This document shows positions 148 through 24,815 of a stretch of DNA of 25,287 bases, piece by piece. Both the position numbers and the translations under genes were made by a program. The notes beneath the pieces are model-generated. The model saw nothing but the letters and a program-made list of their open reading frames with translations. It was not told where the DNA came from and did no database searches. The stretch spans positions 1-25,287 of the forward strand of contig NC_018021.1 of NCBI RefSeq assembly GCF_000266885.1. The letters run 5' to 3'. Within the stretch, counting starts at the first letter, position 1; each line of letters starts with the position of its first letter. Source of the DNA: Turneriella parva DSM 21527 (GTDB lineage: Bacteria > Spirochaetota > Leptospiria > Turneriellales > Turneriellaceae).

Positions 148-1326
148 TTATAATGGCTTTATCGGCATTGGGTTTCTGTACTGCAACACTTTACCCGTAA
201 ACATGTCAATTACGCCAAGGGCGACCGAGGCAAAGTGTATCCGTGCATGCCTTTCAGATATCTCCTCCAGGCCAACTAGTTCGCCCGCAAGTGCACCGGA
301 GAGAAATATGCGGAACCCGGCATAGCCGATGTTGCCGGCGTCATTGACCCGGCAGGTTTCGATATTCGTAGCGTATGCAATCTCCGGTAGCTTCTCCGGA
401 TATTCGCGCGGTGACCGCTTGTACAACTCTGATGGCAATTTGTCCCGTAAGGCTTCATGCGGCCGTTCGTAATTATACTCTTCCATGAATAAGTCGAAGG
501 CCAGTTGCTGGTCATCGAGTGAGGATTTAGGTGGCAGTGCCGTGGCTTCTTTCAACGTCTTGTGCATGCGTTCGTGACGCCCATTTTGCTGCGGCTTACC
601 GGGTTCAATGCGTTCAAGCCCTATGCCCAGCTTCAGCCACCAAACAGACAGTCTGCTGAGGCCCGCGAGACTGGTTGAGGCAAACGGCGCCCCATTGTCA
701 GTTCGAATGGCGTGAGGCATGCCAAATTCACGAAAAACCTCAGCAAATATAGCCTGAGTATTCTCTGTGTTGGTCTTCGGTACAATCTTGCAGCCTAACA
801 GAAAGCGGCTATGCGCATCTGTTATGGTCACAGGATCACAGCGCAGGCCATTGCCCACAGTGAAATGGCCTTTGAAATCGGCGCACCAAACATCATTAGG
901 CTCCGTCACATGCGATAACGGATATACCGGCACGGCTTTGCGCTGCCGTTTTTGCTTTCGGGTCAGACCTTTGCGGCTAAGAATTCGGCCAACGGTGCTT
1001 GGACACGGCCAGTCTGAAACACCAGGATAACGCCGTTTTATCAAGGCCAAGAGTTTCCGGGCACCCCAGGTTGGATGGCTGTCCCGCGCCCTGATAATCA
1101 TTTCGACGATCTTGGGTCTTACCGCCTTGGGTTGCCTCTTGGGCGCCCGAGACCGGTCTTTGAGCCCATCCAACCCTTGGGATTCATATTGCTCGAGGTA
1201 TTTGTATCCGGTGACACGACTAATGCCGAACTCCCGGCAAAGGTCTGTCATCGACCAGCCACCCTCTTTCCAGGCGACCACGAATTTCATCCGCTCTTCA
1301 TACACATTAGTCTCCTTCCATGGCAT
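148..1326 (-). CDS. IS481-family DDE transposase
   Basis: The 392-aa protein should catalyse cut-and-strand-transfer of its own element. Residues about 25-60 form a helix-turn-helix (REFGISRVTGYKYLEQY). A second DNA-binding region follows, then an rve/integrase-type catalytic core. The DDE residues read as D150 (in WCADFKG), D210 (in RTDNGAPF) and E252 (in GRHERMHKTL), with spacing typical of IS481. The C-terminal part contains EEYNYERPHEAL, common in this group. The ATG at 1326 has a GGAGG ribosome site (complement of 1333-1337) about 7 nt upstream. The gene is complete, with no frameshift. Assignment to the IS481 family rather than IS3 OrfB rests on the single ORF and the motif layout. Confidence 0.92.
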   Translation of the reverse strand: MPWKETNVYEERMKFVVAWKEGGWSMTDLCREFGISRVTGYKYLEQYESQGLDGLKDRSRAPKRQPKAVRPKIVEMIIRARDSHPTWGARKLLALIKRRYPGVSDWPCPSTVGRILSRKGLTRKQKRQRKAVPVYPLSHVTEPNDVWCADFKGHFTVGNGLRCDPVTITDAHSRFLLGCKIVPKTNTENTQAIFAEVFREFGMPHAIRTDNGAPFASTSLAGLSRLSVWWLKLGIGLERIEPGKPQQNGRHERMHKTLKEATALPPKSSLDDQQLAFDLFMEEYNYERPHEALRDKLPSELYKRSPREYPEKLPEIAYATNIETCRVNDAGNIGYAGFRIFLSGALAGELVGLEEISERHARIHFASVALGVIDMFTGKVLQYRNPMPIKPL

Positions 1327-6212: not shown

Positions 6213-7247
6213 CTACTCGTCATTATCGGCATCGGAGGATGTATAACTTTCGAGCTGGTATTTTCTGAGCTTGTGCTGCAACGAGCCGCGAGAGACCTTG
6301 AGCAACCGGGCAATCTTATGCTGCGAGCGGCCGACGCGGGCATGCGCCCTGCGTATTGCCTCTTTTTCAAACTCGGCAACGACGCCGCGCAGCCCCCTAC
6401 CCTCTTCGAGAATCGACTCGACAGAAAGCCCTGCCCCGCCCAAAACCTGTTTTTTCAAGAAAGCCAGATTTGCTGCCGCGTCTGATCTGGGACCATAGAA
6501 CGCCTGCCAGAACTGCCCGAGCGACTGCAACTCGGCGGCGTCGCGTTTTGCCAGCGCAGGCATCACAAGCTTCTGCGGCTCAAGCATGGCGGCGAGCGAC
6601 TGGTGCACAATTTTCCGGTCGCTGAGCATACCGACGTCGTATACGCTCGCGACCCTGAGAGCGTCACCCGAGCGGGCATTTTTCCAGAGCTCTTGCTGCT
6701 CTTTCAGTTCGAGCAATGCAATCTCTGGCACGAGCCAGGTCGTGCGGTCAGCCTGCTCAATCTGGCAAACCGGCGAGCGATTGAGGTCGGGCAACTGGCC
6801 TGTATGCAAGAGAGCCAAAGACTGCAACACAAACCTTTTGCCCACCCCCGGCTGGCCATTGAGCAACAGAACCGGTGGCGGCGACAACAGTGCTGCATTG
6901 AGCGTCGCCGCAAGGCCAGGGGCATCGGGCATAAAGGGGAAAAAGGTCGGCCGAATTTCGGGCCCTGTCTTCTCGAGCTGCAGCAGCAGACCCCAGACAG
7001 CGCCTGCCGCGTCAGAAACTGGCGATGGTGCAAATAGCTTAACCGTCAGGCCGTTGCCAGACTGCCACTCGAATACCTGCGGTAGCGAGGCGGCAGGGCG
7101 AAACGCGACAGCCGCTTCAGAAACCTCAACGACGCGTTCGGCACCGTCGAAAATCAGGGCGACTTCAAAACCCGAACCAGCTGCAAAGAAATGCGCGCGC
7201 CACAGACCCCACAGGCCACGAGACTGGTACTCTGACCAGATTTGCAT
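6213..7247 (-). CDS. Degenerate NtrC-type AAA+ protein with Fis-type helix-turn-helix
   Basis: The 344-aa protein has the outline of a sigma-54 activator but lacks the catalytic parts. Residues 1-95 are an N-terminal domain that is not a receiver (FEVALIFDGAERVVEV). A Walker A-like GQPGVGKR is at 131-138, with Arg in place of Ser/Thr. The Walker B equivalent reads WLVPEIALLELKEQQELW, where the usual LDEI has become VPEI. No GAFTGA loop is present, so sigma-54 contact and ATP hydrolysis are unlikely. Residues about 294-332 form a Fis-family helix-turn-helix (HKIARLLKVSRGSLQHKLRK). It probably binds DNA as a non-catalytic regulator. It is divergent from parA across the candidate parS region and leads a likely two-gene operon. 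Class is fairly sure, function is not. Confidence 0.72.
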   Translation of the reverse strand: MQIWSEYQSRGLWGLWRAHFFAAGSGFEVALIFDGAERVVEVSEAAVAFRPAASLPQVFEWQSGNGLTVKLFAPSPVSDAAGAVWGLLLQLEKTGPEIRPTFFPFMPDAPGLAATLNAALLSPPPVLLLNGQPGVGKRFVLQSLALLHTGQLPDLNRSPVCQIEQADRTTWLVPEIALLELKEQQELWKNARSGDALRVASVYDVGMLSDRKIVHQSLAAMLEPQKLVMPALAKRDAAELQSLGQFWQAFYGPRSDAAANLAFLKKQVLGGAGLSVESILEEGRGLRGVVAEFEKEAIRRAHARVGRSQHKIARLLKVSRGSLQHKLRKYQLESYTSSDADNDE

Positions 7248-7283
7248 CTCTCATGCAGCTTAATTTTAATCGCCCGTCAATCA

Positions 7284-7292
7284 TTATCCATA
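7284..7292 (+). other. DnaA-box-like sequence
   Basis: TTATCCATA differs from the DnaA consensus TTATCCACA at one position. An inverted partial copy (ATGGATAA) lies at 7397-7404. Two such boxes in about 120 bp near parS-like sites are suggestive, but chance cannot be excluded. Confidence 0.3.
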
Positions 7293-7304
7293 GAAGCACG
7301 CAAA

Positions 7305-7320
7305 TGTCGGATACCCGACA
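7305..7320. repeat. Candidate parS site 1 (one mismatch)
   Basis: TGTCGGATACCCGACA is the same 16-mer as sites 2 and 3 with one base changed. It lies between the divergent NtrC/Fis-like gene and parA. Confidence 0.7.
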
Positions 7321-7420
7321 AAGAAGATGAGCACGACTCATGTCCAGCCATAGGTCAAGCAAACCTGCAGCCCGGGCCCATGCAGTTCTTTACACCATGG
7401 ATAAAATCTCTGCGATCGAA

Positions 7421-7436
7421 TGTCGGATATCCGACA
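7421..7436. repeat. Candidate parS site 2
   Basis: TGTCGGATATCCGACA is a perfect 16-bp palindrome. Centre-to-centre distance is 116 bp from site 1 and 39 bp to site 3. It is preceded by TCGAA, a flank nearly shared with site 3. It differs from the widespread chromosomal parS TGTTTCACGTGAAACA but keeps the TGT...ACA frame. Confidence 0.75.
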
Positions 7437-7459
7437 CTCAAAAGCGCAAAAGCTCGAAG

Positions 7460-7475
7460 TGTCGGATATCCGACA
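7460..7475. repeat. Candidate parS site 3, next to the parA start
   Basis: Perfect palindrome identical to site 2, ending 3 bp before the ATG at 7479. Binding here would cover the parA translation start, so this copy may also serve as an autoregulatory operator. Confidence 0.75.
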
Positions 7476-7478
7476 TTC

Positions 7479-8294
7479 ATGCGCGGCCGCATGAATGCGC
7501 TTGACGCATGGAGTAATCGCGCCCACCTGAACAAAGTGGGCGCCGATGTTATTGCAATTGCCAACCAAAAAGGTGGCGAAGGAAAGACGACAACATCGAT
7601 TAATCTCGCGCACGGGCTCTCGCTCGCCGGCAAGCGCACGCTGCTCGTCGACATGGACCCCCAGGGCAACAGCTCGGGAATCTTTACTGATATCGATAGC
7701 CTCACGAAAACCGTCGCAGACCTCTTCACCAAAAAATACACCGCTCAAGAAATTATCGTTTCAACGCGCTACGAAAAGCTCGATATTTTGCCGGCAAAGA
7801 TCAGCCTCGCAGAAGTTGAGCTCAGCACGCTGAATGTTGACGCCCCTTATGTCATGCGCGATGCGCTGGAGAGCGTTAAAGACAAGTACGACGCCGTGGT
7901 GATCGATTGCCCGCCCAGCCTTTCAATATTTACCATTAACGCGCTCGGCTCGGCGGGTTTTGTTGTCATACCACTTCAGGCAGAGAAATTCAGCATTGAC
8001 GGCATCAAAGGTTTGCAGGGCACAATAGAGGGTATTAAGCGGCGCATAAATCCAGAGCTGAAGATTCTGGGCGCGCTCATCACTCAACTCAAGAGCAATA
8101 CCGTTCTGACCAAGACCATATTGCCAGTAATACAGAACTACTTTCCTGTTTTTAACACCTCTATTTCGACTGGTGTCGCAGTGGGGGAGAGCCACCTGTC
8201 GCGCCGCTCATTGCTCGACTACAACTCGGGCGTGAAGCAGGCCAAAGAATATATGGCGTTCGTCAAAGAAGTGCTCGATGGCATCAAAAAGTAA
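7479..8294 (+). CDS. parA: ParA/Soj-type partition ATPase
   Basis: This is the ATPase of a ParABS DNA-segregation system, which forms gradients on the nucleoid that move ParB-parS complexes. The deviant Walker A KGGEGKTT is at 31-38 (271-aa version), then DMDPQGNSS, and DCPPSL as Walker B. There is no N-terminal helix-turn-helix, so it is Soj/type Ib-like and not P1 ParA-like. The open frame extends upstream to 7242, but that part crosses the parS-like sites and is not protein-like. I choose ATG 7479; ATG 7491 is nearly as good. Neither has a clear ribosome site. It overlaps parB by 17 bp, giving a tight operon, and is probably autoregulated through the palindromes. Confidence 0.93.
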   Translation: MRGRMNALDAWSNRAHLNKVGADVIAIANQKGGEGKTTTSINLAHGLSLAGKRTLLVDMDPQGNSSGIFTDIDSLTKTVADLFTKKYTAQEIIVSTRYEKLDILPAKISLAEVELSTLNVDAPYVMRDALESVKDKYDAVVIDCPPSLSIFTINALGSAGFVVIPLQAEKFSIDGIKGLQGTIEGIKRRINPELKILGALITQLKSNTVLTKTILPVIQNYFPVFNTSISTGVAVGESHLSRRSLLDYNSGVKQAKEYMAFVKEVLDGIKK

Positions 8295-9114
8295 AAAACT
8301 CGGCTTCGCCGCCGATATTTTCGAGCAAGACATCGAAGGCATCATTCGCAAGATTCGGTTGGGCGAAATTCAGCCCTCCGCAGAGCAGCCGCGCACACGT
8401 TTTGACGAAACCATCACCGCACTCGCTGAATCGATTAAGACAGAAGGCCTCCTTCAGCCAATTGTTGTAACTAAAGAGGGAACACATTACAAAATAATCG
8501 CGGGCGAGCGCCGCTACCGCGCCGCAAAGCTGCTCGGCCTTGAAGAGATCGAGTGCCGCATCTTGCGAAAAAATGCGAAAGACACGTACCGGCTGGCAGT
8601 CATCGAAAACCTGCAGCGCGAAAACCTCGACCCAATCGACGAATCGCGCGCATTTCGCAGGCTAAAAACCGAGTACGGCCACACCGATGCTGAACTCGCG
8701 CAGATTGTTGGCAAATCACGCAATTATGTCAGCGAGATACTTTCGGTAGCTGAAATTCCCAGCTCTTGGATAGACCGGGCGAAAAACGCCGGCATCGAGT
8801 CGAAAAACCTGTTCATTCAATTTGCGCAGGCCGTTAAATCGGGCTCTGCAGAACAGTTCATCACGGCGTTCTCATCGGGCAACCTGACGACAGTCGCATC
8901 GGCCAAACAATTTAACCGAGCAAACAAACCAGACGTGCAGCCGAAGCGCCCGGCAGCAACTGGCGCGCCTGCCGAGGTCTCATGCTCGAGCGAGCAATCT
9001 GGCCGCACGGCAAAATTCACGATCACGGTGCAGGCGGGCCAGGCGCTTCCATCGGGAAAAGTGAAAGCGCTTGAGTCTGCGCTGGTAGAAATAATAAAAC
9101 GCCAATTGAAGTAG
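8278..9114 (+). CDS. parB: ParB/Spo0J-type centromere-binding CTPase
   Basis: The 278-aa protein binds parS, loads as a CTP-dependent DNA clamp and spreads. The N-terminal domain contains the CTP-binding motif GERRYRAAK at 76-84 and ENLQRENLDPIDE at 110-122. A helix-turn-helix follows (about 134-160, TDAELAQIVGKSRNYVSEIL). A basic, Pro/Ala-rich linker (about 220-245) leads to a C-terminal dimerisation segment ending in ALVEIIKRQLK. Box II and III are intact, so it should be functional. The start ATG lies inside the end of parA in another frame, a sign of coupled translation. The recognition helix presumably matches the TGTCGGATATCCGACA palindromes and not the canonical parS, which is testable. 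Confidence 0.93.
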   Translation: MASKSKKLGFAADIFEQDIEGIIRKIRLGEIQPSAEQPRTRFDETITALAESIKTEGLLQPIVVTKEGTHYKIIAGERRYRAAKLLGLEEIECRILRKNAKDTYRLAVIENLQRENLDPIDESRAFRRLKTEYGHTDAELAQIVGKSRNYVSEILSVAEIPSSWIDRAKNAGIESKNLFIQFAQAVKSGSAEQFITAFSSGNLTTVASAKQFNRANKPDVQPKRPAATGAPAEVSCSSEQSGRTAKFTITVQAGQALPSGKVKALESALVEIIKRQLK

Positions 9115-9148: not shown

Positions 9149-9177
9149 TTGACAACCAAGGATTATGTCACATTATT
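9149..9177 (+). promoter_or_regulatory. Candidate sigma-70 promoter for the rep leader
   Basis: TTGACA (9149-9154) is followed by CATTAT after 16 nt (9171-9176), or ATTATT after 17 nt. Transcription would begin near 9184 and give a leader of about 205 nt before the initiator gene. The motif TTGACAAC recurs in the leader as TGACAACC at 9250-9257, and inverted at 9348-9355. Confidence 0.55.
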
Positions 9178-9197
9178 GTGATGAAGACAAGGGCTTG

Positions 9198-9234
9198 TTG
9201 GATTCTTGCGCAAAAAAAATAAAATAGCGCCAAT
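9198..9234 (+). other. AT-loop hairpin in the rep leader
   Basis: GATT and GCGC on the left pair with GCGC and AATC on the right, separated by an A-rich loop (AAAAAAAATAAAATA). This could fold in the leader RNA, or the A/T stretch could serve as a DNA-unwinding element. The assignment is uncertain. Confidence 0.3.
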
Positions 9235-9268
9235 CCCGCGTTTTCAACTGACAACCTTTGGTTTTGGG

Positions 9269-9320
9269 TAAAAAAAAGGGCATGTTGCCATGCCCGAAAT
9301 TCCAAAGGGAACTTGTTGGA
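9269..9320 (-). ncRNA. Predicted antisense (counter-transcribed) RNA against the rep leader
   Basis: A minus-strand promoter (9327-9355) predicts a start near 9320, and the intrinsic terminator at 9270-9295 predicts the end. This yields an RNA of about 50 nt, with a small stem (TTCC/GGAA) and the GNRA terminator hairpin. It is fully complementary to the rep leader across the ribosome site AAAGGGA (9304-9310) of a leader ORF. By analogy with CopA of plasmid R1, it would limit synthesis of the initiator. The ends are inferred from signals only. Confidence 0.5.
9270..9295 (-). terminator. Intrinsic terminator on the minus strand inside the rep leader
   Basis: Read on the minus strand, GGGCATG, a GCAA tetraloop and CATGCCC form a perfect 7-bp GNRA hairpin followed directly by eight T residues. 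This is a strong Rho-independent terminator. No minus-strand protein gene precedes it, so it most likely ends a short antisense transcript. Confidence 0.75.
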
Positions 9321-9350
9321 TGATGAGACATAATCATGCGCCAACAAGTT
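9310..9350. repeat. Inverted repeat spanning the antisense promoter
   Basis: AACTTGTTGG (9310-9319) pairs perfectly with CCAACAAGTT (9341-9350). The stem continues inward as ATGAT/ATCAT with a 3-nt bulge (GCG). It overlaps the -10 and spacer of the minus-strand promoter and the start of the leader ORF, so it may be an operator for a copy-control repressor or an RNA structure. A further copy of CTTGTTGGA is at 9194-9202. Confidence 0.7.
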
Positions 9351-9415
9351 GTCAAACAAAATTTGATTATTTTCGGTCAGGCGAGGGGAGATGGACGCAA
9401 ACAATATGTACCTAG
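9320..9415 (+). CDS. Possible 31-aa leader peptide overlapping the rep start
   Basis: The frame starts with two tandem ATG codons and encodes MMRHNHAPTSCQTKFDYFRS and 11 further residues, ending TAG at 9413-9415. It has a reasonable ribosome site, AAAGGGA at 9304-9310, 9 nt upstream. Its stop lies 24 nt inside the initiator gene (ATG 9391), in another frame, which would allow translational coupling. The predicted antisense RNA covers its ribosome site. This layout resembles the tap/repA leader of IncFII plasmids, though no sequence similarity is claimed. A 13-codon frame (9282-9323) ends ATGA at this start. The peptide itself is probably unimportant. Confidence 0.35.
   Translation: MMRHNHAPTSCQTKFDYFRSGEGRWTQTICT
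9327..9355 (-). promoter_or_regulatory. Minus-strand promoter for the antisense RNA
   Basis: On the minus strand TTGACA (complement of 9350-9355) is followed after 17 nt by TATGTC (complement of 9327-9332). With 16-nt spacing TGATTATGT gives an extended -10. The -35 is a perfect consensus. It faces the rep promoter and points at the terminator at 9270-9295. Confidence 0.55.
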
Positions 9416-10296
9416 CGATTATGTCCGATATTTTGGACAGCGGCACATGGGCGCAGCTTGGGCCTGCAGCCAAAGCTCTCTATCCGGTGCTGTGCAAATT
9501 CAGCAACCACACATTCAAGCCTGTGTGGCCAGGCACGGACGAACTCTTGCGCCTCACGGGGTTTAAGACAAAAAAGTCGCTGCAAGAAGCAAAGCGTGAG
9601 CTCATCAAAACGGGGTTAATCCACGTCGTGGCGGGAACAGGCCGCACACCGTCACATTACTATTTTCGCTTCGATTACCGCGGCAGCCGGGTGGATATCG
9701 AGGCACACCGGGCGAACACCGCATCACGCAGAGGGATACAAGAATCGCCCCCTGAGAGATACATCGATACCCCACAGGGGGCGGCTGCAGTAGCCCCGAA
9801 CCATATCAATATCCACATTAACAAACTCACACAAACCACAACCAATAACAACCCTGACTTGTCGTCGTTGCTGAATGAATTTTTTGGCTCTGGGCAAAAG
9901 CGCGGGGACTACAAAGAGCGGCTCGTGCAAGAAATGCTCGAAAAATATGGCTCGCTCGAGGTTGGCGAGGCGGTGCGAATCGCGATCAGCCGGGGTAAAG
10001 ACGGCGACATTCGTTTTCTCGAAGGCATTCTGAAAAACCGCGATGCGAAAAAGCCGGTTGCGGCGCCGGGCGGCGATGGGGATTTTTCATTCAACGCGCT
10101 GCCGCCTGCGCTCAAAATCTGGCAAGACCACCTTGAGCCCATGGGGCGATTTGGCTCTACCTGGTATTTCAAGGCTCTGTCTGAAGTTTCGGCAACATTT
10201 GTTGAAGAGCAGTTTAAGCGTGCAGGCCTGCAGATCAAGATATTGAAGGGTTCGTCGCCGGCTGCATCAGAGCAGGGTTTCGCTGCTGCAAATTGA
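9391..10296 (+). CDS. Winged-helix protein, putative replication initiator
   Basis: The 301-aa protein follows parAB in the same direction. Residues about 20-95 form a winged helix (LGPAAKALYPVLCKFSNH, then DELLRLTGFKTKKSLQEAKR and IHVVAGTGRTPSHYYFRF), resembling helix-turn-helix domains of phage and plasmid replication proteins. A Pro/Asn/Thr-rich linker (about 115-155) leads to a helical C-terminal region (160-215, LVQEMLEKYGSLEVGEAVRI) and a last domain (235-290). The ATG at 9391 is preceded by GAGGGGAG. The long structured leader with opposing transcription is what one expects of a copy-controlled initiator. No nuclease or helicase motif is visible. A regulator or phage-derived protein is the alternative. 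Confidence 0.6.
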   Translation: MDANNMYLAIMSDILDSGTWAQLGPAAKALYPVLCKFSNHTFKPVWPGTDELLRLTGFKTKKSLQEAKRELIKTGLIHVVAGTGRTPSHYYFRFDYRGSRVDIEAHRANTASRRGIQESPPERYIDTPQGAAAVAPNHINIHINKLTQTTTNNNPDLSSLLNEFFGSGQKRGDYKERLVQEMLEKYGSLEVGEAVRIAISRGKDGDIRFLEGILKNRDAKKPVAAPGGDGDFSFNALPPALKIWQDHLEPMGRFGSTWYFKALSEVSATFVEEQFKRAGLQIKILKGSSPAASEQGFAAAN

Positions 10297-10394: not shown

Positions 10395-11003
10395 ATGCCA
10401 TTGATGCTTTACACAGTTGTTTTCTTTTTTCTACTTTGTCTTTTCGGATTGTTTTGGTATCTGCAAAGCGGGTCACCTGTACGCGACGCGTACGTCTCGC
10501 CGCTCTTTGGCGACCATGAAAAAAATCTGACAACCGAAGATCTGTCACTGCTGCTTGGCCTGAAGCGTATTGAGCATCTTGCCGATCGCGGCCGCTGGCT
10601 GCTCTTCATTTCGGTTTTGCTGCTGGTCATTGAATTTTTTGCCGTACTCGCGATGCTGATCGAAAGCCGTGGACAGATGTACGTGGTCAGCGCTGTGAAT
10701 CACGGTTACGTGATCGGCGGGTTCATCTATCTTTTGGTTTCGGTACTTGCTGTGATTTTTTCGGTGCGACTGGTGTCGGCAGAAAAATCTCTCTCGATTG
10801 CAAATCCGTTCGAGCGCATTGAGGCGTGGGAACATAAGGTTATTCAGGCAGACGCAGAGCAGAAAAAGCGCATCGTGCTTTATCTAAACCAGGAATCGGG
10901 CAGGCTTGAAGGTTACTTTGCATTTGTTTTTGGTTTGGTAGGTTGCGGCGTGACCTTGCTCATGATCTGGGTTGCAAGCTGGCTCACCCAGTTCGTGCGC
11001 TAA
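10395..11003 (+). CDS. Four-helix membrane protein of unknown function
   Basis: I do not recognise a family. The 202-aa protein has four hydrophobic segments: about 5-23 (LYTVVFFFLLCLFGLFWYL), 72-93 (LLFISVLLLVIEFFAVLAML), 110-132 (VIGGFIYLLVSVLAVIFSV) and 178-200. Charged loops lie between, including RDAYVSPLFGDHEKNLTTED after the first segment and an Arg/Lys/Gln-rich stretch (about 140-165) before the last. It should sit in the inner membrane. The ATG at 10395 has a good ribosome site (GAGGGGG at 10384-10390). It is separated from the initiator gene by 98 bp without a recognisable terminator. The fibre-like gene starts 10 bp after its stop, so the two may form an operon. Confidence 0.75.
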   Translation: MPLMLYTVVFFFLLCLFGLFWYLQSGSPVRDAYVSPLFGDHEKNLTTEDLSLLLGLKRIEHLADRGRWLLFISVLLLVIEFFAVLAMLIESRGQMYVVSAVNHGYVIGGFIYLLVSVLAVIFSVRLVSAEKSLSIANPFERIEAWEHKVIQADAEQKKRIVLYLNQESGRLEGYFAFVFGLVGCGVTLLMIWVASWLTQFVR

Positions 11004-11013
11004 TCTCTCTTTG

Positions 11014-13407
11014 ATGGATATCACCCGTTCACGCAGCGCGACCGCTGCGCAGGTTCGATCGCTTTCGCCGTCGCTGAAAGTCTTAAGCCAGGGCGGCTCG
11101 GTCAGCTTTCAGATTGAACGCACTGCGCCACACTGCAGCGCCGTTGTTGAATATGATTCACCCGCCTGGCTGAATCGTCTGCAGTTTGAATCTTCGCTGC
11201 ATGTTCTGGCGGATATAGCATGGTCAGATGACGGCGTGCATTTCTTTCGGGTGCACGGTGTTCGGCACGAAAGCCGAGGCGACACGCGGGAGTTTTATTT
11301 TCCGCTAACCGTTGCAAAATTTTTGCAGGTACACTTTTATCAAGAAGGTGGCCCGGTGCATGCAAGCGAGCTGCGCAATTTTCAGACAAAATTTCATTCT
11401 CAGGTTCAGCTGAAGGCCTCTTCAGAATCTGACCGGCTATGGACTGCTGCGAACCTCGTTGATCGGCGTGAAGACTATGGTTGGGCTTCGGTCATTCGTG
11501 AAAAAAACGAGCCAGAAGAAGTGCAACTCGATTTCGGCGGCCTGTACTTTATCGATGGCGTGCAGATGAAGGCCGTGGCTGACGAACTGAATTATTTTCC
11601 GTCAGCATTTCAAATTCAGTTGTCTGAAGATGGCAACTTGTGGCAGACCTTGCATAGCGAAGACCATTTTTTTACGGCTTCTGCCTGCTGGAACGCCTGG
11701 AGCTTTAACCCCACACGGGCCCGATGGGTAAAGATTGCGATCAACAAGTCTGCCCATTATAAAAAAGGCGAATACCAGTCGAAAATTCTTGATATTGCCG
11801 TTTCAGGCGTCGCCGCCCGCTGGATTCAAAACGACCAGCAGGCGCCGGCTTCGTTGCGCATGGCGAGCGAGAACGTACCGGGTGCAGTGTTGCTCGCGGG
11901 TAACGGCATTGCAGCCCCGAGTCGCGTTATTCAGAGCGATGACTCAAGGCTGCGCAATGCCAGCACTGAGTACCGTGGCATCATGCAGTTTGCGCGCGAC
12001 AATGAAGTCTCGCAAGAGAAGGCAGTGCAGGCCAACGATTCGCGGCTCAAGGCGGCGACGACGCTCGCGCCGGGCATCGTGCAGCTGGCAAAAAACGGAG
12101 AGGTCAGGGCAGGGGCAGCCGTGCAGGCAGACGATACTCGCCTTGCCCGTACATCTACCGAAGCACCGGGCATTGTGCAGCTCGCGAATGACCGTGAGTC
12201 GCGTTCAGGTGTCGCGGTACAGGGCAGCGACTCGCGCCTGAAAGGTGCGTCAACCGACGCAGCCGGTATCGTGACGCTCGCGCAAGATGGCGAGGTGGCA
12301 GCGGGCAAAGCGGTGCAGGCCAACGATTCGCGGCTGCGGCTTGCGACACAGGCCTGGCCTGGTATTGTATTGCTGGCGCAGGCAGGTGAAATCGCCAGCG
12401 CGAAGGCCGTCGCCGCTGACGACCCGAGGTTGATAGAAGCGGACGAGTCGCACAAGGGCAGGGTGCAGCTCGCGCGCCACGGCGAGGTGATCGAGAAACG
12501 GGCGGTTCAGGCCAATGATCCCCGTCTGGCAACTGCTACCGAAGAAAATCGCGGTATTGTGCAGTTTTCACGCAATGGTGTTGCGACACCTGGTCAGGCA
12601 GTGCAGGCAACCGACAGCAGGTTGACCGATGCGCGCAGGCCATTGGCGCACGCGCACGAAGAGTATGCGAAAACAATCCACGAATTCTCGCAGCACACGG
12701 GCAATCTACAGGTTAAGCGCTCGGGAAAAACAGCGCTGCCCGAAGGGTTTAATGCTATAGCAGATATTAATATCCCACTGGTTATTGAGAACACCGAAGG
12801 GGTTGCTGCCAGTTTCAATGGCGGCTCGGTGCATGCGGCCGAGACAACGGCGAGTTTTCATGTCTCTCAGACCGATAGCGCGATACAGGCGGCGTCGCGC
12901 GACAAGGCTGCGGCGACGCTGGTTTCAGCGAATGCTTATGCGCTACACCTGCCGCGCTCAGCGCTTGGCGTGAAATCATCAGAAAAGGCGCTGCACGCAG
13001 AAGGGCGGGTATTGGTCGAAGGTGCTGTTACCATTCAAGGCGCGCAGAGCGTCGTTGTCTCTCTGCCGCGGGCTTCAAACGAGGCCTTCGTTGAAGGCGA
13101 TCTGCTGACGATCGAAAACGGAGTTGCCGCGAAAATGCGCCAGGACGCGCAGGTCTGCGTCGGCGTTTTCACCAAGACAGCCGGTCTTTCGCTCGAGAGC
13201 GCGAATGCTACCGTTCGCGCCGCAGTTTCTGGAATCGTCAGCCTGCGCGTTTTTGGCCAGGTTAAGGCTGGCGACCGGCTGGTCTTGAATTCGGGCCAAC
13301 CGGGAACCTGCCGAGTTGCGCAGGGGCAAGAAAAGATCGTCGCGATCGCGCTCGAAGCAGTGCAGCAAGACCGCGAGAAACCCGTAATGAGCATTCTCGT
13401 CCGGTGA
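11014..13407 (+). CDS. Tail-fibre-like repeat protein with discoidin-like N-terminal domains
   Basis: The roughly 797-aa protein starts at ATG 11014; the open frame runs from TTG 10972 but that overlaps the preceding gene. Two beta-rich modules (about 1-125 and 130-280) look like F5/8 type C (discoidin) carbohydrate-binding domains, the second with YFIDGVQMKAVADELNYFPS and RWVKIAI. Residues 289-544 are eight exact-length 32-residue repeats with consensus PGIVQLAxxGEVxxGxAVQA, then NDSRLxxAT. This form is typical of phage tail-fibre repeats. A stretch DARRPLAHAHEEY follows, as in fibres. The C-terminus (about 690-797) is beta-rich (GQVKAGDRLVLNSGQPG). No signal peptide is visible. It could be a fibre or adhesin, possibly displayed by a phage-like particle. 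It is coupled to mtnB by a GTGA overlap. Confidence 0.75.
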   Translation: MDITRSRSATAAQVRSLSPSLKVLSQGGSVSFQIERTAPHCSAVVEYDSPAWLNRLQFESSLHVLADIAWSDDGVHFFRVHGVRHESRGDTREFYFPLTVAKFLQVHFYQEGGPVHASELRNFQTKFHSQVQLKASSESDRLWTAANLVDRREDYGWASVIREKNEPEEVQLDFGGLYFIDGVQMKAVADELNYFPSAFQIQLSEDGNLWQTLHSEDHFFTASACWNAWSFNPTRARWVKIAINKSAHYKKGEYQSKILDIAVSGVAARWIQNDQQAPASLRMASENVPGAVLLAGNGIAAPSRVIQSDDSRLRNASTEYRGIMQFARDNEVSQEKAVQANDSRLKAATTLAPGIVQLAKNGEVRAGAAVQADDTRLARTSTEAPGIVQLANDRESRSGVAVQGSDSRLKGASTDAAGIVTLAQDGEVAAGKAVQANDSRLRLATQAWPGIVLLAQAGEIASAKAVAADDPRLIEADESHKGRVQLARHGEVIEKRAVQANDPRLATATEENRGIVQFSRNGVATPGQAVQATDSRLTDARRPLAHAHEEYAKTIHEFSQHTGNLQVKRSGKTALPEGFNAIADINIPLVIENTEGVAASFNGGSVHAAETTASFHVSQTDSAIQAASRDKAAATLVSANAYALHLPRSALGVKSSEKALHAEGRVLVEGAVTIQGAQSVVVSLPRASNEAFVEGDLLTIENGVAAKMRQDAQVCVGVFTKTAGLSLESANATVRAAVSGIVSLRVFGQVKAGDRLVLNSGQPGTCRVAQGQEKIVAIALEAVQQDREKPVMSILVR
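11878..12645 (+). repeat. Eight tandem 96-bp (32-codon) coding repeats
   Basis: Eight in-frame units of exactly 96 bp each. The protein consensus is (P/R)GIVQLAxxGEVxxGxAVQA followed by NDSRL. Units have diverged at DNA level and length is strictly kept, so selection on protein period is likely and recent slippage is not. Confidence 0.9.
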
Positions 13408-14042
13408 ACCAGGCAGATCTCGCATCGACTGTGGTCGCCCGCCAGCTTGCTGAGTGCGGCAATCTGTTTCACCGCTGGCAGTGGTCGCTTTCGACGAGCA
13501 GCAACTATTCGGCGCTGCTGCCCGATTCGGTGGTAGCGATTTCACGCTCGGGCGTTGATAAGCAGTTTATGACTGCGAATGATTTTCTCGCTGTCGATCT
13601 GCATGGCGCTCCGCTGGCGAATTTCAAAGAGATCCGTCCCTCAGCTGAGACGGAGTTGCATTGCCATATTTACCGCAAGGCTCAGGGGCAAGCATTGCCA
13701 ATCGCTTCGGTGCTGCACACGCATTCAAAGTTTGCGGTATACTTTTCCCGGCGCTTTGCTGCCGAGGGGGTGGTGCGCTTCTCGGGCTTCGAAATGCAGA
13801 AAATTTTCGACGGTATCGACACTCATGACAGTTCAATCGAAGTGCCTATATTTGCCAATAGCCAAAAGATGAGTGATATTACAGAGAAATTCGACGCGTA
13901 CCTCGCCAAGAATGCCTGGCCCGCTGCCTATTTGATCGAGGGGCATGGTGTTTATGCCTGGGGCAAGTCGGTATACCATGCAAAACAAAAATTAGAGGCG
14001 CTAGAGCATCTGTTCGAGCAAAAGTACATGGAGGAGAAATAA
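13404..14042 (+). CDS. mtnB: Methylthioribulose-1-phosphate dehydratase
   Basis: This class II aldolase-fold zinc enzyme dehydrates 5-methylthioribulose-1-phosphate to 2,3-diketo-5-methylthiopentyl-1-phosphate in the methionine salvage pathway. In the 212-aa product the metal ligands are H105 and H107 (VLHTHSKF) and H181 (LIEGHGVYAWG). SLSTSSNYSA (28-37) and the Glu/His-rich ETELHCHIY segment are typical of MtnB and separate it from fuculose or ribulose phosphate aldolases. The start is GTG at 13404, overlapping the upstream stop as GTGA. The gene leads a compact mtnB-mtnD-mtnC operon. Genes for the first steps (mtnN, mtnK or mtnA) are not in this window. Confidence 0.92.
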   Translation: MNQADLASTVVARQLAECGNLFHRWQWSLSTSSNYSALLPDSVVAISRSGVDKQFMTANDFLAVDLHGAPLANFKEIRPSAETELHCHIYRKAQGQALPIASVLHTHSKFAVYFSRRFAAEGVVRFSGFEMQKIFDGIDTHDSSIEVPIFANSQKMSDITEKFDAYLAKNAWPAAYLIEGHGVYAWGKSVYHAKQKLEALEHLFEQKYMEEK

Positions 14043-14582
14043 ATGCAGAGCCAGTTAACGATTTGCCCTGAAGGCAATTCATCACAAAAAGAAGTCTATT
14101 CTGATTTCGAGACCATCAAGAAACACCTTGCGGCTGTTGGCATTGGCTATGAGCGCTGGGTTGCAGAGCAGCCTTTGGCGGCTGACGCTTCGCCCGAAGA
14201 AGTTGCGAAGGCCTACAAAACTTCGATCGACAAGATCATGCAGCAGGGTTACAAAACTTATGACGTGGTTTCGCTGCACCCCGATGCACCGCAGGCAAGT
14301 GAGGCGCGTAAAAAATTTATCGATGAGCATACGCACGGCGAAGACGAGGTGCGCTTCTTCGTCGATGGTTCAGGCATGTTTTACATTCACAAGGCCGGCA
14401 AGGTCTTCATGATGCTCTGTACCAAGGGAGACTTCATCAATTTGCCTGCAGGTACAACGCACTGGTTCGACATGGGCCCAAAGCCCTTTTTTAAGGCGAT
14501 TCGTGTTTTTAACAACCCCGAAGGCTGGGTGGCGACATTTACGGGCAGCGATATTTCGCAGAAGTTTCCGAAATACGAATAA
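14043..14582 (+). CDS. mtnD: Acireductone dioxygenase
   Basis: The 179-aa cupin oxidises acireductone to the 2-oxo acid precursor of methionine plus formate (iron form), or to an off-pathway product (nickel form). The four metal ligands are all visible: H96, H98 and E102 in EHTHGEDEVRF, and H140 in LPAGTTHWFDMG. The spacing and numbering match the well-studied Klebsiella enzyme. The ATG follows the mtnB stop directly (TAAATG), with GGAGGA just before it in the mtnB end. Full length, in the cytoplasm. It uses the product of mtnC, encoded next. Confidence 0.95.
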   Translation: MQSQLTICPEGNSSQKEVYSDFETIKKHLAAVGIGYERWVAEQPLAADASPEEVAKAYKTSIDKIMQQGYKTYDVVSLHPDAPQASEARKKFIDEHTHGEDEVRFFVDGSGMFYIHKAGKVFMMLCTKGDFINLPAGTTHWFDMGPKPFFKAIRVFNNPEGWVATFTGSDISQKFPKYE

Positions 14583-15290
14583 GTGAAAATTCAGGCTGTA
14601 GTCTGTGATATCGAAGGCACGACGTCTTCGATATCGTTCGTTCACCGTGTGCTGTTTCCTCTTTCATTAGAGCGCATGCATGATTACTTGCGCGAAAATG
14701 CCGCCGACAGAGAGTTAAAAGCGCAGCTTGCAGAGCTCTGGGTGCGGCTTTTTCCCGGGCAACCACAATCTGCAGACATGCCTGAAATTCTCGAGCGTAA
14801 GCTTGTCGAGTTTATTCAAAACGATGTCAAAGACACGACGCTGAAGTGGGTGCAGGGCAAAATCTGGAAACAGGCCTTTGAGAGCGGTGTCGTCAAGGGG
14901 CATGTCTACCCCGAGGTTGCTGGCTTTTTTGAAAGGTGGATTTCTCAAGGCATGAGCCTCTACATCTATAGCTCGGGCTCGGTCGAAGCCCAGCAGTTGC
15001 TTTTTCGCCATTCACAAGCTGGAGACCTGACGAGATTTCTCAGAGGATACTTCGATACAACGACTGGCCCCAAGCGCGAGACAGATTCTTACCGTTCGAT
15101 TGCGAAGAGTATAGGCGTAGAGCCTGCGTCGATTTTGTTTTTGTCTGACATCACGGCCGAGCTCGATGCCGCGCAGACGGCTGGCTTTAAGACCTGTCTT
15201 TTGCTGCGAGGGGCGGCTGCGACACCCGCAGGTTATACTGGCCCGACCGCTGCCGACTTTGCCGGTGTTCACCAGCAGTTCTTTCTGTGA
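14583..15290 (+). CDS. mtnC: Enolase-phosphatase E1 of methionine salvage
   Basis: The 235-aa HAD-superfamily enzyme enolises and then dephosphorylates diketo-methylthiopentyl-phosphate to acireductone, in one magnesium-dependent protein. HAD motif I is D9 and E11 in VCDIEGTTSS, where the Glu replaces the usual Asp and is typical of MtnC. Motif II is SSGS (near 124), and the late acidic motif is FLSDITAELDAA. Length agrees with the family. The start is GTG directly after the mtnD stop (TAAGTG). This completes a three-gene block covering the steps from methylthioribulose-1-phosphate to the methionine keto acid. A terminal aminotransferase is not seen. Confidence 0.93.
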   Translation: MKIQAVVCDIEGTTSSISFVHRVLFPLSLERMHDYLRENAADRELKAQLAELWVRLFPGQPQSADMPEILERKLVEFIQNDVKDTTLKWVQGKIWKQAFESGVVKGHVYPEVAGFFERWISQGMSLYIYSSGSVEAQQLLFRHSQAGDLTRFLRGYFDTTTGPKRETDSYRSIAKSIGVEPASILFLSDITAELDAAQTAGFKTCLLLRGAAATPAGYTGPTAADFAGVHQQFFL

Positions 15291-15348
15291 ACTCAAGGCG
15301 CATCAGTTAAATTGATTGCCCCGTGCGCTTTGCACGCAAAATGCGCAC

Positions 15349-16821
15349 ATGGCTAAACCCTACATTGTAACGATCGATCAAGGCACGACTGGATCGCGCG
15401 TCTTCTTGATCTCTGAACGCGGCGAGGTGATCTCGAGCGCGTACGAAGAATTCACGCAGCATTTTCCGAGGCCCGGCTGGGTTGAACACGACGCCGAAGA
15501 GATTTGGGCAAGTGTTGAAAAGTTGCTCGCGCGGGCCATCGAGGCATCGGACGCTGCGGCGATAGGCATTACGAACCAGCGCGAGACGACTGTCGTCTGG
15601 GAAAAAAGCACCGGCAAACCGATACATCCTGCTATTGTCTGGCAATGCCGCCGCACCGCAGACTATTGTGAGCAACTCAAGAAAGAGGGCAGGGCGGAGC
15701 TCTTTCGGAAAAAAACGGGTCTTGTGCTCGACGCCTATTTTTCAGGGACAAAAATTAAGTACATTCTCGACAATGTCGGTGGTGCGCGCAGCCGCGCCGA
15801 AAATGGCGAATTGCTGTTTGGCACGATCGACACATTTTTGTTAAACCGGCTGACGGGTGAGCATAAGACCGACTTCACCAACGCGTCACGCACTCTGATT
15901 TTCAATATTCATGAGCGTAAATGGGATGCCGAGCTCTGTGAGATCCTGAAAATTCCACAAAAAATTCTGCCGTCGGCGCAGGCGAGCAGCAGCCTCTTTG
16001 GCAAGACAAAGGGGCTCAAGGCGCTGCCCGATGGCGTGCCGGTCTATTCGCTGATCGGCGACCAGCAATCGGCTCTTTATGGCCAGCTGTGCCACAACCC
16101 CGGCGAGGCAAAGAATACCTATGGCACTGGCTGTTTTGTGGTGATGAATCTCGGCGATAAATTTCTCGAGAGCAAGAACGGCCTGATCACGACTCTTGCC
16201 TGCGATGCGCACGGCAACCCGGTCTACGCACTCGAAGGTTCAATTTTTATCGGGGGTGCGGTTGTGCAGTGGCTGCGCGACAAGATGCATTTCTTCGACG
16301 ACTCGGGTAAGTCAGAAAGCCTCGCGAAATCCGCAAACGACGAATCAGAAGTTGTGTTTGTGCCCGCATTCGCAGGCCTCGGCGCGCCCTATTGGGACCA
16401 GAATGCGCGCGGTGCAATTCTCGGCCTGACGCGCGATACCACGTCGGCGCAAATTACGCAGGCTGCGCTCAAAGCAATCGCGCTGCAATCGTACGACGTC
16501 ATCGCGGCGATGCAGGCCGACAGCGGTCTCAAATTACCGGTTCTCAAGGTTGATGGTGGCGCCACGCGCAACAATTATCTGATGGAATTTCAGGCCGGGG
16601 TTTTGGGTGCTTCAGTGGTTGCGCCACGAAATGCCGAGACGACGGTTCTGGGTGCTGCCTACCTCGCAGGCCTCGGCGCGAAAATTTGGTCATCGCCTGA
16701 AGATCTGGCAAGCCTCAACCCGCCAGCGGCGACGTTTCACCCGGTCATGACAGCCGCGCAACGCGAGCGCGAACTAAAACTGTGGAAAGATGCGATTGGG
16801 CGCGTGCTGACGACGCGCTGA
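15349..16821 (+). CDS. glpK: Glycerol kinase
   Basis: The 490-aa FGGY-family kinase uses ATP to make glycerol-3-phosphate, feeding phospholipid synthesis and glycerol breakdown. It begins MAKPYIVTIDQGTTGSRVFL with the N-terminal phosphate-binding motif. Further signatures are GITNQRETTVVW, the FGGY-like GEAKNTYGTGCFV, GLGAPYWD (around 345), and the C-terminal LKVDGGATRNNYLM. All are intact and length is normal. The frame extends upstream to 15316, but M12 (15349) matches the family start. No strong ribosome site is seen. A short inverted repeat (CGTGC/GCACG, 15322-15336) lies just upstream. No glpF or glpD is nearby, so it appears to be a single gene. Confidence 0.95.
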   Translation: MAKPYIVTIDQGTTGSRVFLISERGEVISSAYEEFTQHFPRPGWVEHDAEEIWASVEKLLARAIEASDAAAIGITNQRETTVVWEKSTGKPIHPAIVWQCRRTADYCEQLKKEGRAELFRKKTGLVLDAYFSGTKIKYILDNVGGARSRAENGELLFGTIDTFLLNRLTGEHKTDFTNASRTLIFNIHERKWDAELCEILKIPQKILPSAQASSSLFGKTKGLKALPDGVPVYSLIGDQQSALYGQLCHNPGEAKNTYGTGCFVVMNLGDKFLESKNGLITTLACDAHGNPVYALEGSIFIGGAVVQWLRDKMHFFDDSGKSESLAKSANDESEVVFVPAFAGLGAPYWDQNARGAILGLTRDTTSAQITQAALKAIALQSYDVIAAMQADSGLKLPVLKVDGGATRNNYLMEFQAGVLGASVVAPRNAETTVLGAAYLAGLGAKIWSSPEDLASLNPPAATFHPVMTAAQRERELKLWKDAIGRVLTTR

Positions 16822-22524: not shown

Positions 22525-23199
22525 ATGGATGTCACGGCGAAAAGAGAAGACCTGAAGCTCACGGTCAATGAGATATTCTACAGCATTCAGGGCGAGGGCA
22601 GTTACGCGCTGCATCCCTGTGTTTTCGTGCGGCTCACAGGCTGCAATCTGCGCTGCACCTGGTGCGACACAACGTATTCATTCTACGAAGGTGAGCCGCA
22701 GACAATCACGCAGATTTTGCAGACTGTCACGGGGTATGCGGCGAAAAATGTCGAAATCACAGGCGGCGAGCCGCTGCTGCAGAAAAATGTGTATCCACTA
22801 ATGCATGCGCTGCACGAGTCAGGGCACAAGGTCTTGCTCGAAACATCCGGCTCGGTCAAGGTGAATCAGGTGCCGCAATTTGTGCATACCATTCTCGACA
22901 TGAAGGCGCCCGGCTCAGGCGAACACAAAAAAAATCGCTACGAGAACCTTCAATTACTCAAAAGCTCCGACGACTTAAAAATTGTTATCGCCAATCATGA
23001 GGATTTTCAATTTGCTGAAGACCTGATACGCGAACACAAAGTCGAAGCGTTGCTGCAAAATCCGGTCATTATTCAGCCAGTTTTTGGCGAGCTTAACCTT
23101 GCAGAGGCCGGCGAATGGCTTAAAAATTCACCGCTCAATCTTCGGCTCGGCATGCAGCTGCACAAATACATCTACGAACCCACGCTCAGAGCGGTCTGA
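22525..23199 (+). CDS. queE: 7-carboxy-7-deazaguanine synthase
   Basis: This radical-SAM enzyme rearranges 6-carboxytetrahydropterin to 7-carboxy-7-deazaguanine, on the way to queuosine in tRNA. The 224-aa protein has the cluster motif C40-x3-C44-x2-C47 (LTGCNLRCTWCDT) and the substrate loop EIFYSIQGEG at 16-25. ITGGEPLLQ is the SAM-binding GGEP motif, and the C-terminus HKYIYEPTLRAV is typical. There is no clear ribosome site before ATG 22525. The gene overlaps queD as TGATG. This is the first of three precursor genes in one operon; queF, tgt and folE are not in view. Confidence 0.94.
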   Translation: MDVTAKREDLKLTVNEIFYSIQGEGSYALHPCVFVRLTGCNLRCTWCDTTYSFYEGEPQTITQILQTVTGYAAKNVEITGGEPLLQKNVYPLMHALHESGHKVLLETSGSVKVNQVPQFVHTILDMKAPGSGEHKKNRYENLQLLKSSDDLKIVIANHEDFQFAEDLIREHKVEALLQNPVIIQPVFGELNLAEAGEWLKNSPLNLRLGMQLHKYIYEPTLRAV

Positions 23200-23555
23200 T
23201 GCAGATAGAAAAAGAGTTTATTTTCGATTCTGCGCACTTTCTCCCGTTGGTGCCCGAAAACCATAAATGCAGAAAACTGCATGGCCACACCTACCGCGTC
23301 ACCATTGCCGTGTCAGGTGAAATCAACCCCCAGGGGTGGATTATGGATTTTGCCGATATCGGCGATATCGTGAAGCCGATTGTGCGCTCGATCGATCACA
23401 CGCTGCTCAACTCTGTCGAAGGGTTAGAGAACCCAACCGCAGAAAATATTGCGCGTTGGCTGTTTGACCGTATTAAAGAGAAATTACCAGAACTTGCGTT
23501 TGTGATTGTTCAAGAAGGCGAGTCGTCTCGCGTGATCTATCCCCAAAGGCAATAA
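23199..23555 (+). CDS. queD: 6-carboxy-5,6,7,8-tetrahydropterin synthase
   Basis: This 118-aa PTPS-family zinc enzyme converts dihydroneopterin triphosphate to 6-carboxytetrahydropterin for queuosine. Zinc ligands are H13 (DSAHF), H28 and H30 (KLHGHTY). The catalytic Cys is C24. DFADIGD, DHTLLN, PTAENIARW and QEGESSRVIY are all present, and E and H positions fit QueD and not eukaryotic PTPS. Full length. Its ATG overlaps the queE stop by one base, and its TAA shares a base with the queC ATG, so stoichiometric expression is likely. Confidence 0.95.
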   Translation: MQIEKEFIFDSAHFLPLVPENHKCRKLHGHTYRVTIAVSGEINPQGWIMDFADIGDIVKPIVRSIDHTLLNSVEGLENPTAENIARWLFDRIKEKLPELAFVIVQEGESSRVIYPQRQ

Positions 23556-24268
23556 TGGCGCCGCGTGCAGTTGTGCTTCTTTCAGGCGGGCTCGACTCGG
23601 CGACCTGCATGTATCTCGCCCGCGAGCATGGCTTTGAAGTCGAGGCCATCTCGTTCAACTACCAGCAGCGTCATAGTGTTGAATTGACCGCGGCGCAAAG
23701 GCTCGCAGCTACCTGCGGCGCCAACCATACGATTATCGACGTGAATTTGCGAGCGATCGGTGCGTCGGCTTTAACGAGTGATATTGCTGTGCCAAAAGGC
23801 GGCACACACCTGCAGGGCGAAGCGGTGATACCTTCGACGTATGTGCCGGTGCGCAACCTGGTATTTCTCTCTCTCGCCTATGCATTAGCCGAAGCGAAAG
23901 ATTGTTCGGCTATTTTCACTGGAGTCAATGCCATCGACTATTCAGGGTATCCCGATTGCCGCCCCGATTTTATTGCCTCGTTCGCGCAAACAGCGGCGCT
24001 GGCTTCTAAATCGGGCAGAGAAGGGCGCGCACCTGAAATTCTCACACCGCTCATTGCCATGACAAAATCAGATATCGCCACAGAAGCGCTGCGGCTCGCT
24101 GTGCCGATTCACCTCACCTGGTCATGCTATGACCCGCAAACTGCCGGCGACATGCTTAAACCCTGCGAGCAATGCGACGCCTGCCTGCTGCGCGCGCAGG
24201 GTTTTGCTGCGTTGGCGCTGCAGCTATCTAAAGAAGTAATTTTCGGTTCTCCCGTAAAAGTCGCATAA
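23555..24268 (+). CDS. queC: 7-cyano-7-deazaguanine synthase
   Basis: The 237-aa ATP-dependent enzyme converts 7-carboxy-7-deazaguanine to preQ0 using ammonia. The PP-loop SGGLDSATC is at 10-18. A conserved PVRNLVFLSLAYALAEA helix and the GVNAIDYSGYPDCRP block follow. The zinc Cys set is C191, C204, C207 and C210 (CYDPQ...CEQCDAC), as in QueC. Full length. The last 41 bp overlap the convergent maf gene, so no terminator separates them. It is the third gene of the queE-queD-queC operon. Confidence 0.95.
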   Translation: MAPRAVVLLSGGLDSATCMYLAREHGFEVEAISFNYQQRHSVELTAAQRLAATCGANHTIIDVNLRAIGASALTSDIAVPKGGTHLQGEAVIPSTYVPVRNLVFLSLAYALAEAKDCSAIFTGVNAIDYSGYPDCRPDFIASFAQTAALASKSGREGRAPEILTPLIAMTKSDIATEALRLAVPIHLTWSCYDPQTAGDMLKPCEQCDACLLRAQGFAALALQLSKEVIFGSPVKVA

Positions 24269-24815
24269 ACCGACTTGAGGGAAACCCCATCACGTTAAAG
24301 TAACAACCTTCGATGCGCTCAATATTTTGCATGCCAAACGCATCTTGCACACCGTAACCACCCGCTTTGTCATAGGGTGACGGCGTGTCGGCATAGGCCT
24401 CGATCACTGAAGCTGGCAGCTCGGCGAAAAAGACCCGGGTTGTCTCGATAATCTCGGCCTTTTCACCGCGCGGAAACACCAACGAGACCGCGGTATGCAC
24501 GAGATGCGGCCGGCCAGAGAGTCGCGACAGCATCGAAATCGCTTCAGGTCTGTCTTGCGGCTTCTCGAGCACCAGGCCATCGAGTACGACAATCGTATCG
24601 GCAGCCACAGTCAAAACACCTGGCGCAGCGATCACTCTCGCCTTTTCGTGGGCTATCCTCAACGTCTGCTTTTCTGCGTCTGCGTCGCGAATCGCCAGTT
24701 CGTCGATGTTGGCCGGCCGCACTTCGCAGCGAAAACCGAGTTTTTCAAGAATTTCACGGCGTCGCGGTGAAGCGCTCGCGAGCACAATCTGCACAGAAGC
24801 AAATTCATTGCTCAT
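24228..24815 (-). CDS. maf: Maf-family nucleoside triphosphate pyrophosphatase
   Basis: The 195-aa protein hydrolyses dTTP, UTP or modified pyrimidine nucleotides to monophosphates, as a house-cleaning enzyme linked to septum formation. It has the signature LASASPRRREIL near the N-terminus. AADTIVVLDG is followed by KPQDRPEA and LSGRPHLVHTAVSL. Then come PYDKAGGYGVQ and IEGCYFNVMGFP. These fit the YhdE-type (dTTPase/UTPase) subgroup better than YceF. The stop codon is TAG at 24228, inside the end of queC. Its ATG (24815) directly abuts the ATG of the divergent DUF423 gene, leaving no intergenic DNA. Confidence 0.92.
   Translation of the reverse strand: MSNEFASVQIVLASASPRRREILEKLGFRCEVRPANIDELAIRDADAEKQTLRIAHEKARVIAAPGVLTVAADTIVVLDGLVLEKPQDRPEAISMLSRLSGRPHLVHTAVSLVFPRGEKAEIIETTRVFFAELPASVIEAYADTPSPYDKAGGYGVQDAFGMQNIERIEGCYFNVMGFPSSRFMRLLRENRKLLL

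Follow-up and report, generated by a model that had tools for sequence, protein, structure and literature searches.

The window analysed here is a whole stretch of DNA of 25,287 bp, the complete plasmid of Turneriella parva DSM 21527, whose genome otherwise consists of one chromosome of 4,384,015 bp; the published genome has 4,409,302 bp and lists the plasmid as record CP002960 (PMC3746428). On its plus strand lie parA, parB, rep and a gene for a discoidin-type protein, with a compact set of opposing promoters, hairpins and boxes in the gap between parB and rep:

7242-8294, plus strand: parA, Soj-type ATPase (Pfam AAA_31/ParA), listed with a TTG start at 7242; the true start is probably further in
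8278-9114, plus strand: parB (Pfam ParB_N and HTH_ParB; NCBIfam TIGR00180 above cut-off)
9149-9176, plus strand: probable sense promoter of the rep leader, TTGACA-16-CATTAT, from the scan and from relatives
9162-9176, no strand assigned: box 1, ATTATGTCACATTAT, near-palindrome ATnATGTnACATnAT, at the sense promoter
9194-9203, plus strand: further copy of the sequence targeted by the antisense tail, CTTGTTGGAT, close to the 5′ end of the mRNA and the only other one in the window
9270-9321, minus strand: predicted antisense RNA of about 51 nt (49-55 nt depending on the start), from covariance model R1, folding and conservation
9278-9295, minus strand: hairpin II, intrinsic terminator stem GGGCATG-GCAA-CATGCCC, followed by eight T residues at 9277-9270
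9297-9314, minus strand: hairpin I of the antisense RNA, AAGUUCC-CUUU-GGAAUUU, from folding
9310-9319 and 9341-9350: 10-bp perfect inverted repeat, AACTTGTTGG and CCAACAAGTT, flanking the leader ATG; a sense hairpin is possible
9320-9334, no strand assigned: box 2, ATGATGAGACATAAT, over the antisense -10 and holding the leader ATG
9320-9415, plus strand: 31-codon leader frame, overlapping the rep start at 9391; conservation as an ORF unsupported
9327-9355, minus strand: antisense promoter, with -35 TTGACA at 9355-9350 and -10 either TATGTC at 9332-9327 (N17) or GATTAT at 9335-9330 (N14)
9391-10296, plus strand: rep, winged-helix initiator of 301 aa (Pfam HTH_36; PHROG replication initiation)
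10972-13407, plus strand: discoidin-type protein, a syntenic neighbour common to the plasmid and Leptospira interrogans chromosome II

The 25-kb plasmid is chromid-like in that it carries core-metabolism-like genes at 13404-16821 and 22525-24815. Among these are genes for a class II aldolase, an ARD and a HAD hydrolase (methionine salvage-like), an FGGY kinase, queE-like, queD-like and queC genes, and a Maf gene. An IS481-type transposase gene (151-1326, minus strand) lies close to the record end.

The rep start at 9391 is immediately preceded by GAGGGGAG. For the Rep protein, Pfam gives HTH_36 alone, with nothing else at E ≤ 10 and no match to the RepA_N domain, and no PDB chain matches it in sequence. 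Its AlphaFold model has a moderate pLDDT of 73, and a Foldseek search of the fold gave weak similarity (E 0.04), with 5kbj, 4pql and 4pt7, which we take to be RepA_N N-terminal domains, among the best matches. Of the 48 genomes of the class, 36 carry Rep homologues, the most distant with about 24% identity, and the RepC family (RP-C, PF03428) was found in none of the 48.

A sequence-only reading of the window had described both promoters, the terminator hairpin with its eight T residues, the inverted repeat, a ribosome-site-like AAAGGGA at 9304-9310 (inside the target of the antisense RNA) and the 31-codon frame, and all of them lie where it placed them. Generic scans of the region alone stay near shuffle level, with three promoter-like elements against 1.8 expected and five terminator-like elements against 3.9, and the case for the unit therefore rests on comparison with relatives. 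The comparison also alters one detail: TTGACA-N17-TATGTC is present on the minus strand, but TATGTC is a poor -10, sharing only three of six bases with TATAAT, and the hexamer conserved across the class is xATTAT, which overlaps TATGTC and in T. parva takes the form GATTAT, 14 bp after TTGACA. The 5′ end can therefore be placed only to within a few bases, and the predicted RNA has 49-55 nt. An A+T-rich stretch lies upstream of the antisense promoter and reaches about 9378. In the T. parva genome the RNA scores 64 bits with model R1 (E 6e-13), its fold has a z-score of -3.5, and Rfam has no match at gathering score within the 25,287-bp plasmid. Since parB and rep, which flank the gap, both read on the plus strand, no other gene needs a minus-strand promoter and terminator there, and an antisense RNA best explains the pair.

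Upstream of rep, 37 aligned loci have the same elements on the minus strand: TTGACA, then a -10 resembling ATTAT and, after a short stretch, a GC hairpin followed by a T-run. The -35 is a perfect TTGACA in 28 loci and keeps five of six bases in the other nine; the hairpin with its minus-strand T-run is present in essentially all 37, and in most it lies 73-100 nt from the -35. Within the short stretch, most loci have the small hairpin I, in which UUCC...GGAA is kept and the loop varies; it is missing from three (L031, L034 and L038). Close relatives retain the inverted-repeat core CAACA:UGUUG, and most relatives have a TTGACA-like element and box at the place matching the sense promoter. An automated search found 28 distinct terminator stem sequences in the 37 loci; it mis-picked the stem in a few, including L007, L015, L018 and L040, where the hairpin is still visible by eye.

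A covariance model built from 24 of these loci, for which the automatic structure comprised five pairs and left out hairpin I, recovers loci outside the seed at E values from 3e-14 to 6e-4. Searched against the class, it places the unit in 34 of 48 genomes, at one site each and nowhere else on their chromosomes, apart from G017, which has two rep genes and two sites; among 344 other genomes of the phylum it found none. Thirty-two of the 34 unit-bearing genomes have a Rep match, and in these the site immediately precedes rep, on the antisense strand. The terminator pairs covary, with a score of 0.699 against 0.226 for shuffled alignments and at most 0.20 for slid controls, and 92% of alignment cells are paired against 65% after shuffling; the alignment was fitted to the tested structure and kinship inflates the counts, and the slid control holds relatedness constant. 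These values indicate that the structure of the predicted RNA, in its terminator stem, is under selection, and the comparison with relatives settles that the putative unit is more than chance. Covariance in relatives had been proposed as a check on the leader, and it came out in favour: the unit is recognised and its stem covaries.

The exceptions are few. G019 has a rep homologue (L020, G019:C30) without the unit, and the leader there is only about 190 nt long, with a sense hairpin AAGAGACA...TGTCTCTT. Conversely, G010 and G011 keep parA-parB and the unit, with no Rep match in either genome: in G011 (L089, G011:C50:5800-8800) a discoidin gene follows the unit directly, and in G010 (L090, G010:C134:6100-9100) a membrane-protein gene comes after some 600 bases that hold no long plus-strand frame. 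Both units are probably remnants of a replicon that has been lost or has integrated into the chromosome.

One relative is a replicon of L. interrogans, NZ_CP020413.2 (350,181 bp), labelled "plasmid unnamed1", which we infer to be chromosome II. Its genes run HTH-parA-parB-rep-discoidin, the order of the T. parva plasmid, with ParA 59% identical, Rep 41% identical over 72% and the discoidin protein 33% identical over 765 positions (E 1e-103). The antisense unit there (L035) scores 63.9 bits, which is not an independent test because L035 is among the 24 seeds; it was identified before the model was built. Its location is:

about 295,200 to about 295,141 of NZ_CP020413.2, minus strand: antisense unit of chromosome II, predicted RNA

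By sequence, plasmid and chromosome II have in common a syntenic, homologous block of parA, parB, antisense unit, rep and discoidin gene, and the predicted unit goes back to the ancestor of a replicon family to which Leptospira chromosome II belongs. The N-terminal part of the chromosome II Rep is common to the T. parva protein, and its C-terminal stretch (about residues 192-290; L035:4576-4870) is common to lcp-type Rep proteins, a pattern of modular initiators. Like T. parva, the lcp1, lcp2, lcp3 and LE1-type replicons have parA, parB, a gap of comparable size and rep, their gap being about 410 bp long, with TTATGTC boxes; unlike T. parva, they have another leader sequence and an initiator that shares only the C-terminal stretch. 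The antisense model gave no convincing match in lcp2, lcp3, LE1-type and related replicons (best E 0.042). The parB-rep gaps of lcp2, lcp3, LE1-type, pLiSL32 and L. weilii replicons (L072-L076, about 400-420 bp) hold a strongly conserved, apparently structured leader with TTATGTC and GACATAAC boxes, unrelated to the antisense RNA and possibly a second control RNA.

Both promoters in the T. parva gap overlap a box, ATGnGACATAAT. Of 37 loci, 21 have the box at both promoters and a further 11 have it at the sense promoter alone, with no occurrence in 117 kb of flanks. It is also in excess across the T. parva chromosome (28 sites against 2 for the control), which rules it out as a Rep-specific operator. 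Nor did an SOS site fit, since among the adjoining genes that were read one UvrD-like helicase alone looked like an SOS gene. The box may act as an extended -10 (TGTG-n-CATAAT) or as the site of a regulator, perhaps a global one; a text search of open-licence PMC papers for it returned nothing relevant. The near-palindrome ATnATGTnACATnAT is enriched also in families f1-f4 of the class, and a further plasmid copy lies at 51-65. Of the sites on the T. parva chromosome, among them C1:4383957-4383971, one is found some 100 bp upstream of dnaA. The enrichment, together with the resemblance of box 2 in the plus direction to an extended -10 (TGTGACATAAT), would fit a reading in which box 2 serves as a second plus-strand rep promoter or as a repressor operator, beside an incidental minus-strand promoter. 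That is very unlikely, since box 2 is missing in 16 of 37 loci, yet the minus-strand TTGACA and the terminator stay.

We propose that a cis-antisense, counter-transcribed RNA of about 50 nt is encoded here, which would limit expression of Rep and so set the copy number and incompatibility of the replicon, and we give this reading a probability of roughly 0.86. The strong minus-strand promoter between target and rep would drive a short RNA consisting of a single-stranded 5′ tail, a small hairpin and the terminator hairpin. This RNA would pair with the rep leader at 9270-9321, with perfect complementarity that is automatic for transcripts of the same locus, and its tail would also be complementary to the second site near the mRNA 5′ end, 9194-9203. 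We infer that the RNA is transcribed, pairs with the leader, acts negatively on Rep and thereby controls copy number: because every replicon copy would make the RNA, more copies would mean more RNA and less Rep. Several observations weigh against this reading. In G019 rep does without the unit; two genomes keep the unit after loss of rep, which an unneeded relic or another role would explain; and the folding and pairing tests described below show no effect in T. parva. The sequence-only reading had likewise put a short antisense RNA against the rep leader, for copy control beside ParAB, and the covariance in relatives supports that part; the coupling to a leader peptide that it added fares differently.

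In that coupling, modelled on tap, the antisense RNA would block translation of the 31-codon leader frame, and ribosomes passing through the frame would open the ribosome site of rep. The arrangement in T. parva invites it, with AAAGGGA inside the RNA target and the frame running across the rep start, and in 15 of 36 loci the leader frame extends at least as far as 20 nt before rep. Nevertheless, frames at homologous positions are no longer than in dinucleotide shuffles (combined p 0.98); they shrink to 1, 1, 3, 5 and 9 codons in L011, L042, L018, L037 and L035, the L. interrogans frame of nine codons stops about 70 nt before rep, and both G017 copies read ATG TGA. No conservation of a leader peptide goes beyond the part dictated by the DNA box, and stop codons in the box account for the surplus of the leader frame over the other two. 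The ATG itself is explained by the putative box ATGnGACATAAT, of which it is part. The comparison with shuffles and with the other frames thus rejects the leader ORF as a conserved part of the unit, so that the frame, real as it is, is of a length expected by chance, and the coupling is unlikely. We favour control of rep through leader structure, as in repABC replicons, over coupling through a leader peptide, with translation block, premature termination or a leader switch as candidate outcomes of pairing.

The most explicit form of leader control would be a three-arm switch in which arm A, the antisense target, pairs with an arm B upstream of rep and keeps the ribosome site free. Once the antisense RNA occupies A, B would fold over the ribosome site, or else a terminator would arise, and rep would be shut off. 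In 13 of 37 loci (p < 0.05), mainly of family f6, the target pairs with the rep-proximal leader more than shuffled sequences do, with a combined p of 3e-9 that is approximate since the loci are related, and arms A, B and C are clear by eye in L033, L030 and L038. Folding with the target blocked predicts a fall in accessibility of the rep ribosome site in L007, L019, L023, L027 and L035. Against this, the mean effect over loci is small (0.030 versus 0.007); in T. parva antisense binding gives no computed fall in accessibility, and the target does not pair with the rep-proximal leader above shuffles (p 0.40). Arm B, moreover, coincides in part with the A+T-rich stretch ahead of the antisense promoter and is thereby constrained at the DNA level. 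We rejected a ribosome-site switch as a universal mechanism, the folding effect being weak over loci and absent in T. parva, and regard the three-arm switch as a tentative option, somewhat less probable than its negation. The upstream target copy CTTGTTGGAT has counterparts in nine related loci in the T. parva order, or in ten counting L029, whose upstream copy matches its own, different target; this points to a function for two-site binding or for competition with CCAACAAG at 9341. The same tracking of target sequence by the upstream copy speaks against transcriptional interference alone, in which the convergent promoter would count and not the RNA. The promoters do converge at about 150 bp and the promoter is better conserved than hairpin I, but interference needs no precise short RNA, and the terminator stem covaries and in most loci is held at its distance from the -35; we consider this reading extremely unlikely.

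Among known systems, the nearest analogue of the proposed antisense RNA is the ctRNA of alphaproteobacterial repABC replicons (IncA, RepE, inc-alpha), which is also about 50 nt long, ends in a terminator hairpin, lies between parB-like and initiator genes and opposes the initiator leader, in a family that likewise includes secondary chromosomes. The order parA-parB-antisense unit-rep is that of repABC replicons as well. The repABC ctRNA is reported to lower repC expression and to make the leader form a terminator (PMC6090056, PMC3155836). Membership in repABC is ruled out because RepC is absent from all 48 genomes of the class; the T. parva system differs further in an RNA without an Rfam match, in its phylum (Spirochaetota), in a separate sense promoter after parB, in the second target copy and in the shared promoter boxes. 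In pMV158, RNAII (48 nt, with a 5′ tail and a terminator hairpin) inhibits initiator synthesis (PMC4485353). The T. parva RNA was said to be among the smallest of its kind, which holds, but it is no record, given the 48 nt of RNAII (PMC4485353) and the approximately 50 nt of the repABC ctRNA (PMC6090056). pMV158 is also a rolling-circle replicon with a CopG repressor, whereas T. parva has two hairpins, a ParAB partner and an operon without a CopG-like gene. The plasmid pSK41 is of the RepA_N type, and antisense control of its initiator by RNAI has reportedly been described (going by the title of a 2006 paper by Kwong, cited in PMC3155836). As in T. parva, an antisense RNA there faces a winged-helix initiator, though the structural match of Rep to such proteins is weak (E 0.04). 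IncFII plasmid R1 has the CopA/CopT-tap-repA arrangement, in which an antisense RNA opposes an initiator leader holding a short frame. R1 had been offered as the parallel for T. parva, where the leader frame shows no conservation as an ORF and the RNA is shorter and unrelated; the repABC ctRNA is the closer one. Taken with repABC, the T. parva system suggests that the plan of parA, parB, antisense RNA and initiator arose twice with unrelated initiators.

The open-licence PMC papers searched yielded no published antisense RNA for Leptospira or Turneriella replicons, and the passages searched in the Leptospira transcription start site and sRNA papers (PMC5243855, PMC13224635) do not mention the unit, which counts against the proposal. 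In Leptospira, chromosome II is kept at a ratio of about one to the main chromosome (PMC13342612). Vectors for Leptospira fail in hosts whose rep is the same, for reasons described as unknown (PMC4338851, PMC4640553); the open-licence PMC papers searched gave no mechanism for either. A link to vector incompatibility is by analogy only, because those reports concern lcp-type replicons, which lack the RNA. In the fullest picture, one ancestral antisense RNA would control a family of replicons from a 25-kb plasmid to the Leptospira second chromosome, acting on a two-site target through a leader switch, and promoter boxes in common with chromosomal promoters, among them the one upstream of T. parva dnaA, would couple initiation of the second replicon with that of the main chromosome; as a whole this is quite improbable. 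For chromosome II itself, the antisense unit would provide a concrete candidate control, with coordinates.
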